A DNA stretch of 64,000 nucleotides from Tepidicaulis marinus (GTDB lineage Bacteria; Pseudomonadota; Alphaproteobacteria; Parvibaculales; Parvibaculaceae): contig NZ_BBIO01000004.1 in the NCBI RefSeq assembly GCF_000739695.1, positions 62,001 through 126,000 on the forward strand, read 5' to 3'. The notes below the pieces were generated by a model. It did no database searches. It worked only from the letters and a program-made list of their open reading frames with translations, and was not told the DNA's origin. The position numbers were made by a program, and so were the translations under genes. Position 1 is the first letter of the stretch, and each line of letters begins with the position of its first letter. This document shows, one piece after another, positions 61,932 through 63,039 of this stretch.

Positions 61932-61956
61932 TACGTTTTCCGCAGGACGAAGATCG

Positions 61957-61987
61957 AGGCCGGAGCTTTGCTCCGGCCTTTTTCTTT
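61957..61987 (+). terminator. terminator of glnA
   Basis: AGGCCGGAG-CTTTG-CTCCGGCCT then TTTTCTTTT: a perfect 9-bp stem with a U-run, 26 bases after the glnA stop codon. Confidence 0.93.
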
Positions 61988-62078
61988 TCCATATCATCCG
62001 TATAGAAACAATATGGCGAGAAGACTATATTCCGCGATAGGTCAGCATTGCTAACTCATTGATTTTGCACGATAATTA

Positions 62079-62107
62079 TTGACAGAAGGCAGCGCCCTTC
62101 CTACATT
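62079..62107 (+). promoter_or_regulatory. strong sigma-70 promoter in the glnA downstream region
   Basis: TTGACA (62079-62084, full consensus) and TACATT (62102-62107), 17 bases apart. It points away from glnA into a stretch without a conventional gene. Expected start near 62114. Confidence 0.7.
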
Positions 62108-62116
62108 CGAAGGGCG
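62093..62116. promoter_or_regulatory. operator-like palindrome around the -10 box
   Basis: CGCCCTTC and GAAGGGCG are perfect 8-bp inverted arms with an 8-base centre that contains the -10 hexamer at 62102-62107. A repressor bound here would block RNA polymerase. The protein is not in this window as far as I can tell. Confidence 0.6.
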
Positions 62117-62443
62117 TCAACGAACCTAAGGAGGTTTATAAAGTTGGCTCCACCGACGTTCATTGGCGGTGACAATTGAATAGAGAAGTGGCTTTTGTAG
62201 ACAGCTGGACCGGTGACGTTCCGCGGCAGCGAAGCAAAGGAGTTTAGGCCAGATAGCGCGAGAGAGACCTTAAGCTTCCCCCTGCCGGGAAATAGTTGGT
62301 TACAGCCTATCCTGCAAAGAAATAGCCCGGCTTATAAGTCAGGGCGGGTGCCAGATGGCACAACCAGACAGCAACCCCGTGCAGGGATGAAATCCTGCTT
62401 GACGGGGTTGCTTGATATGTCCCCTTCCCCTTTGGCCGACGCC
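62114..62443 (+). ncRNA. candidate structured RNA with a short ORF, about 300 nt
   Basis: Region downstream of the 62079-62107 promoter. From about 62284 it is dense in stems: GCCGGG/CCCGGC (62284-62289 with 62326-62331), GTGCCA-GA-TGGCAC (62348-62361) and a 43-base hairpin with 11-bp AGCAACCCCGT/ACGGGGTTGCT outer stem and GCAGG/CCTGC inner stem (62370-62412). The weak U-content after the last hairpin means its end is uncertain. The only gene downstream on the same strand is absent: the next gene is on the other strand, so this is not the leader of one. Confidence 0.55.
62144..62179 (+). CDS. possible 11-codon peptide with a perfect Shine-Dalgarno
   Basis: TAAGGAGGTT (62127-62136) lies nine bases before a TTG, which opens the frame TTG GCT CCA CCG ACG TTC and closes at TGA 62177-62179, giving MAPPTFIGGDN. 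The ribosome-binding site is the best in the region, but the ORF is very short and the start codon is TTG, so translation is not proven. Confidence 0.35.
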   Translation: MAPPTFIGGDN

Positions 62444-62484
62444 CTCGGCAAAACGTTTCTTGCCCGCCTATCCGCGCGGCCCGG

Positions 62485-63039
62485 TTATTCAACCCGTCTG
62501 AAAAGCCCTGGATAGAGCGTCACAAGCCCTTGCTCATCCACCTCAATGTCCCGCGTGAAATCGCTGTCGAGAGAGGCATAGCGGTAAAGGGCATTTTTCT
62601 TCAGGCATGTATAACGCTGCGGGTCCGGCAGGACTTCCATCCCGGGAAAGGAGATATAGGCCGTCACGATATCTGCCGTCTCGCCCTCCTCCAGCCGCAG
62701 CCGGCGAATGGGCAGGGTATTGGTGAAAGGGGAAACGGCGAGATCTATGTCCACCGCATCGGAAAGGCCGTTCAACGTCTCGCCGGTTTCGTCCCGCCAA
62801 TGGCCATGGCCGTCGCTTTCCAGCGTATGCTTGCAGCCCGTATCGACCACGGTGAGGTCCAGCCTTTGAAACCGCCAGGCTGCATCGCACCGGAGGGTAT
62901 AATGCAGCCCGAATGCATCGCCGCCTGCGACGCCGATCACAACCGAGCGGGCAAGATAGCCATCCGCCAGTTCTTCCAGAACCAAGTGCTCGTGTCCTTG
63001 GCCCGACCAGCTTTCCCATCTGATACTGTCACGCCACAT
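62485..63039 (-). CDS. putative glycolipid-binding protein (PF06475 family)
   Basis: 184 residues. Family marks are visible in order: RWESWSGQGHEHLVLEEL, FGLHYTLRCDAAWRFQRLDL, SDGHGHWRDETGETL, DIDLAVSPFTNTLPIRRLRL and LVTLYPGLFRRVE. The glycolipid-binding role is only predicted for the family. GGGAG lies about six bases before ATG 63039. 14 bases after the Old Yellow Enzyme gene, so probably co-transcribed. Confidence 0.88.
   Translation of the reverse strand: MWRDSIRWESWSGQGHEHLVLEELADGYLARSVVIGVAGGDAFGLHYTLRCDAAWRFQRLDLTVVDTGCKHTLESDGHGHWRDETGETLNGLSDAVDIDLAVSPFTNTLPIRRLRLEEGETADIVTAYISFPGMEVLPDPQRYTCLKKNALYRYASLDSDFTRDIEVDEQGLVTLYPGLFRRVE

Follow-up and report, generated by a model that had tools for sequence, protein, structure and literature searches.

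The promoter at positions 62079-62107 of the 64,000-nucleotide stretch of Tepidicaulis marinus DNA analysed here (the window) is, as far as comparison with related genomes can tell, the promoter of a stand-alone structured RNA of about 300 nt with a micro-ORF at its 5′ end. The comparison reveals the gene itself, the conservation of its promoter, a micro-ORF encoding Pro-Pro, three hairpins towards the 3′ end, no downstream gene that is served, and the distribution of the RNA among genomes. The predicted RNA extends from 62114, a start placed by the -10 box, to 62411, an end placed by a terminator-like stem, and its elements follow in the order of promoter, strong Shine-Dalgarno (SD) sequence, very short ORF, hairpins and terminator-like stem. 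The promoter, the dyad upstream of it and all parts of the RNA gene are on the forward strand. The initial annotation had seen here a promoter with no gene to serve, which is not the case: a conserved micro-ORF begins at 62144, about 30 nt past the predicted start site, and is followed by a conserved structured RNA. Its suggestion of a promoter for an RNA and/or peptide gene is supported: the micro-ORF and the structured RNA are conserved across the whole family and also in further families of the class.

The -35 and -10 boxes are where they had been placed, TTGACA at 62079-62084 and TACATT at 62102-62107. Together, TTGACA-N17-TACATT matches the sigma-70-type consensus at 10 of 12 positions. 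Since the window contains two such 10/12 sites in total and one to three are expected in Markov sequence, the promoter sequence alone is not significant, while its conservation is. Nearly all relatives have a counterpart at the equivalent position, and nearly all of the aligned family sequences have the form TTGAC-N17/18-TAGC[AC]T or a close variant. Judged by this conservation, the promoter is real.

The 24-base palindrome CGCCCTTC-CTACATTC-GAAGGGCG (62093-62116) is present as described, with arms that are perfect in T. marinus and with the -10 box at its centre. These two properties favour the view, taken in the initial annotation, that the palindrome is the operator of a tightly repressible promoter. 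However, the window contains 52 inverted repeats whose 8-bp arms are perfect and whose spacer is 0-12, seven of them with a spacer of 8, so the palindrome is unremarkable. Conservation in related genomes had been proposed as one half of the test of this view, and the palindrome does not pass this half: the exact pattern occurs in T. marinus alone among the 40 family genomes and is missing from the other 39. In an alignment of the promoters anchored at the -10 box, 8 of 8 arm positions match here, 4 of 8 in the sister species G001 and 0-5 of 8 elsewhere, where most values are near the chance level of 2. The arms are thus broken in the sister species even though the promoter is retained there. 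The palindrome is probably accidental, and it is hardly credible that it acts as an operator.

Regulation through another site is plausible on the pattern of conservation. An operator-like dyad, GGTCAGCATTGCTAACTCA, which is conserved in the family, is located at 62040-62058, some 40 nt before the -35 box and at about -70 from the predicted transcription start. Of 36 family promoters, 29 match its consensus, GGTCARCANNNCTRACTCA, with no more than three mismatches, while the best match in shuffled controls had six mismatches and never fewer. Three genomes of family f121 have the consensus with one mismatch. The distance from the dyad to the SD sequence is nearly fixed in the family promoters, mostly 90-100 nt, and the exact dyad pattern, where found in the family, occurs once per genome and always at the RNA promoter. 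The position of the dyad suits activator and repressor alike, and activation would be as likely as repression.

The RNA was reached by a search with the intergenic DNA, which found, in other genera, conserved segments past the end of glnA; the regions after glnA were collected from relatives and compared. The collected regions share the arrangement GGAGGTTT-N5/6-[A/T]TG-[A/G]CN-CCA-CCN, a short ORF that ends after 9-11 codons, and a structured region with GCAACCCCG...CGGGGTTGC at its end. In the window, the strong SD sequence is AAGGAGG (62128-62134), and its GGAGG is found in 37/37 family sequences examined. A hairpin that would sequester the SD sequence is predicted, but was rejected since relatives disrupt a number of its pairs with no compensating change. 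The structured middle domain (62180-62324), based on a consensus fold of 28 sequences, is specific to Parvibaculaceae and is shorter or different in other families. Its conserved piece, 62234-62275, is matched in several genera (query 305-346). An ORF of 100 aa at 62213-62515 was rejected, because relatives differ by a great many insertions and deletions in the homologous region.

The micro-ORF (62144-62179) has a TTG start and encodes the 11-aa peptide M-A-P-P-T-F-I-G-G-D-N, followed by a stop. All 37 family sequences have start-[A/T]-P-P, and in 36 of them the peptide is 9-11 aa long. In the family, codon 2 is GCT, GCC, ACT, ACC or ACG and codon 4 is CCG, CCT or CCA, so that both vary at the third position with the amino acids retained; codon 3 is CCA in 37/37, with no silent change. 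Across the class, codons 3 and 4 are CCA, CCG, CCT or CCC and invariably encode Pro-Pro, the start codon is ATG, TTG or CTG, and the stop always falls within 19 codons. The peptides outside the family are MTPPDSLHS, MDPPDSWRSLSVEGER, MEPPDSWLSLSVERGR, (TTG)TPPNHIVR, MTPPTYWAPL, MTPPTQGTTA, MTPPEEVVRS, MTPPKKHLT, MRPPAKGR, MIPPDNQDSSSKNETTS, (CTG)TPPTNSSA and (TTG)TPPAQT; the CTG frame was identified in the sequence by eye, and its presence was confirmed by pattern. In the sister genomes G320 and G228, the micro-ORFs differ by silent and conservative codon changes. Some of the exact matches to the SD-ORF pattern (L062, L064, L076, L136, L140, L141, L142 and L146) resemble ordinary coding sequence or chance hits and were set aside.

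The three 3′ hairpins are hairpin A, GCCCGGCTTATAAGTCAGGGC (62325-62345), hairpin B, GTGCCAGATGGCAC (62348-62361), and hairpin C, GCAACCCCG...CGGGGTTGC (62371-62411). Hairpins A and B both carry compensatory changes. Hairpin C is a terminator-like stem followed by a U tract, and since this tract is weak in Parvibaculaceae, the 3′ end of the RNA is uncertain. For 21 sequences, drawn from several families, the three hairpins have 95.1% of their cells paired, a percentage that is inflated because alignment A5 was fitted to the structure model. In the same sequences, 21 of 30 pairs have changes on both sides; for the outer pairs of hairpin C, the count across the class is 8 of 10. The covariation score is 0.381; shuffled alignments give 0.147, and sliding the partners gives no more than 0.079. 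The slid controls, together with the independent evidence of the ORF, argue that the fitting is not the cause of the covariation, and the number of double changes, set against the slid controls, would be difficult to arrive at in another way. In the window copy, the three hairpins have a predicted folding energy of -48.1 kcal/mol (z -5.3).

With R1, a covariance model built on the three 3′ hairpins, exactly one copy is recovered from each of 38 of the 40 Parvibaculaceae genomes, and the 27 good-quality genomes are all among these 38. Two wider models, R2 and R3, were built after weak R1 matches were seen outside the family. Of 385 genomes sampled, R3 gives credible matches in at least 13, which belong to seven other families; this is a lower bound, since only a few candidates (about ten) were scored per genome in the class-wide scans. 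By these counts, the RNA is sparser in several other alphaproteobacterial lineages than in Parvibaculaceae. All good structural matches carry start-x-Pro-Pro-...-stop upstream, and the chance rate of the micro-ORF pattern is 1.8% per random 450-nt stretch. R3, which models hairpins only, newly found four ORF-bearing genomes that could not match the earlier ORF pattern: G114 (MIPP), G151 (MRPP), G236 (CTG-TPP) and G327 (TTG-TPP). The micro-ORF is also present in G218, which was outside the training set of R3. Two weaker R3 matches, in G300 and G310, are devoid of a micro-ORF and were judged to be chance.

No Rfam 15 family matches the window or six homologous loci at or above its gathering score. 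The genomes with this RNA also carry 6S RNA (RF00013) and alpha_tmRNA (RF01849), structured RNAs that are likewise single-copy and roughly as large, but at other locations: neither covariance model matches the locus, and in this genome 6S RNA sits at G000:C26 and tmRNA at G000:C42. By eye, hairpin A resembles the 3′ end of RNase P RNA, but no Rfam match at the locus supports this likeness. The literature, covered in part, yielded nothing relevant on such an RNA or its peptide strings, and an earlier description is possible. In the Parvibaculum-like relative L087, positions 239-315, upstream of the RNA, have a sub-threshold match to the Bradyrhizobiaceae sRNA BjrC68 (27.3 bits, with a gathering score of 39).

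Spot 42/SpfP, SgrS/SgrT and Pos19 (the last named in PMC5036791) are dual-function sRNAs, in which a small ORF and a structured RNA with a terminator are on one transcript. To our knowledge, none of their ORFs is built on start-x-Pro-Pro. The RNA described here, which differs from them in matching no Rfam family, has an ORF and a structured part that comparison shows to be conserved together and that would share a transcript. The trp attenuator RNA rnTrpL of Sinorhizobium meliloti, a small RNA with a terminator and a very short 5′ ORF for the leader peptide peTrpL, acts in trans both as RNA and as peptide (PMC7298713). A very short 5′ ORF and a terminator or terminator-like stem are common to both; rnTrpL, however, is leaderless, has Trp codons and precedes trpE(G), while the RNA here has a strong SD sequence, Pro-Pro and a locus of its own without a regulated downstream gene. 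In enterobacteria, mgtL and other proline-codon leader peptides respond in their translation to EF-P/EfpL and Mg2+ (PMC11611912). The micro-ORF resembles mgtL in being very short and containing prolines, but mgtL controls mgtA in cis, whereas the RNA here has no linked transporter gene and its peptide is otherwise unlike MgtL.

The reading that we favour, and consider fairly probable, is a stand-alone dual-function regulatory RNA, attenuator-like in its build but freed from a downstream gene, in which a Pro-Pro pause would set the state of a 3′ part that acts in trans. The sigma-70-type promoter, with the upstream dyad as a site for a DNA-binding protein, would give a transcript of about 300 nt ending at hairpin C. 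Its near-perfect 5′ SD sequence would load ribosomes, which would make a start-x-Pro-Pro peptide of fewer than 20 codons. Translation of motifs of the Pro-Pro type depends on EF-P (PMC11611912), and initiation together with an early pause at Pro-Pro may park a ribosome on the 5′ end. The parked ribosome could determine how long the structured 3′ part persists or how available it is, and this part, with its hairpins, may work in trans as a small RNA or as a protein ligand. What counts against this reading is that about 145 nt separate the ORF stop from hairpin A in the window, a distance at which a terminating ribosome could not touch the hairpin directly.

The attenuator-like build also brings to mind a cis-acting leader, an attenuator or riboswitch of a neighbouring gene. 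The locus does have the architecture of a leader-peptide attenuator at the sequence level, with a short ORF and ribosome-binding site before hairpins and a terminator-like stem, and the RNA gene often adjoins glnA. In the family and several other lineages, however, the gene follows the 3′ end of glnA and is directed away from it, and a strong intrinsic terminator (61956-61980; 11-bp stem and T run) is located just past glnA in the window, which argues against the RNA being a mere read-through product of glnA. The next gene in the window, for a putative glycolipid-binding protein, is convergent. The context also varies by family: in G320 and G228 the RNA gene follows a cobA-like gene (uroporphyrinogen methyltransferase, named by eye from sequence). 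Among the contexts inspected, in both glnA and cobA settings, neighbours are convergent or unrelated, with no constant co-directional downstream gene, and no regulated one was found at the inspected loci. The RNA is therefore not a leader in the ordinary sense, and a role in cis is very unlikely.

Two further alternatives place the function in the peptide alone or in the RNA alone, and each is improbable to a similar degree. The transcript may be a tiny mRNA whose product is a trans-acting peptide of fewer than 20 residues, the hairpins being merely a stable 3′ UTR and terminator. The strong SD sequence and the retention of x-Pro-Pro at the amino-acid level fit such a peptide, and peptides of similar size can work in trans, as does the 14-aa peTrpL of Sinorhizobium (PMC7298713). 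Retention is limited, however, to residues 3 and 4 and partly 2 and 5, with the remainder free in sequence and length, and hairpins A and B are kept with compensatory changes though a 3′ UTR does not need them. Conversely, the RNA may be a purely non-coding sRNA, in which the peptide plays no part and the region of the SD sequence and start codon is an RNA element, such as a target-pairing seed or a ribosome-binding stabiliser. The unvarying CCA of codon 3 in the family indicates that the RNA sequence itself is also constrained. Such an RNA would not be expected to vary its Pro codons silently across the class while Pro-Pro stays constant, to change between G320 and G228 by silent and conservative codons, or to keep a stop invariably within 19 codons.

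This single-copy RNA is kept in essentially all Parvibaculaceae and occurs in several other families. With a frame of fewer than 20 codons it is easily missed by gene callers, and it has no Rfam match. A more far-reaching proposal, offered tentatively and somewhat unlikely as it stands, is that it belongs to a class of free-standing ribosome-state RNA sensors, in which an early Pro-Pro micro-ORF, carried on a structured RNA that acts in trans, would report EF-P activity, charged tRNA-Pro or Mg2+. Translation efficiency itself would then set the level or activity of the RNA. If the invariant Pro-Pro is a ribosome pause, a free-standing RNA readout of EF-P/tRNA-Pro status becomes a directly testable question.

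A TTGAC-type promoter, an SD sequence and an M-T-P-P micro-ORF are also found in four contigs, one of which is labelled Filomicrobium: L061 (4449-4473), L068 (1217-1241), L083 (122-146) and L075 (5088-5112). Their micro-ORFs read MTPPGRL, MTPPGRI, MTPPGRF and MTPPTALCPSS. No match of their different-looking 3′ parts to the model was found, and these loci may represent a branch of the RNA that has diverged.
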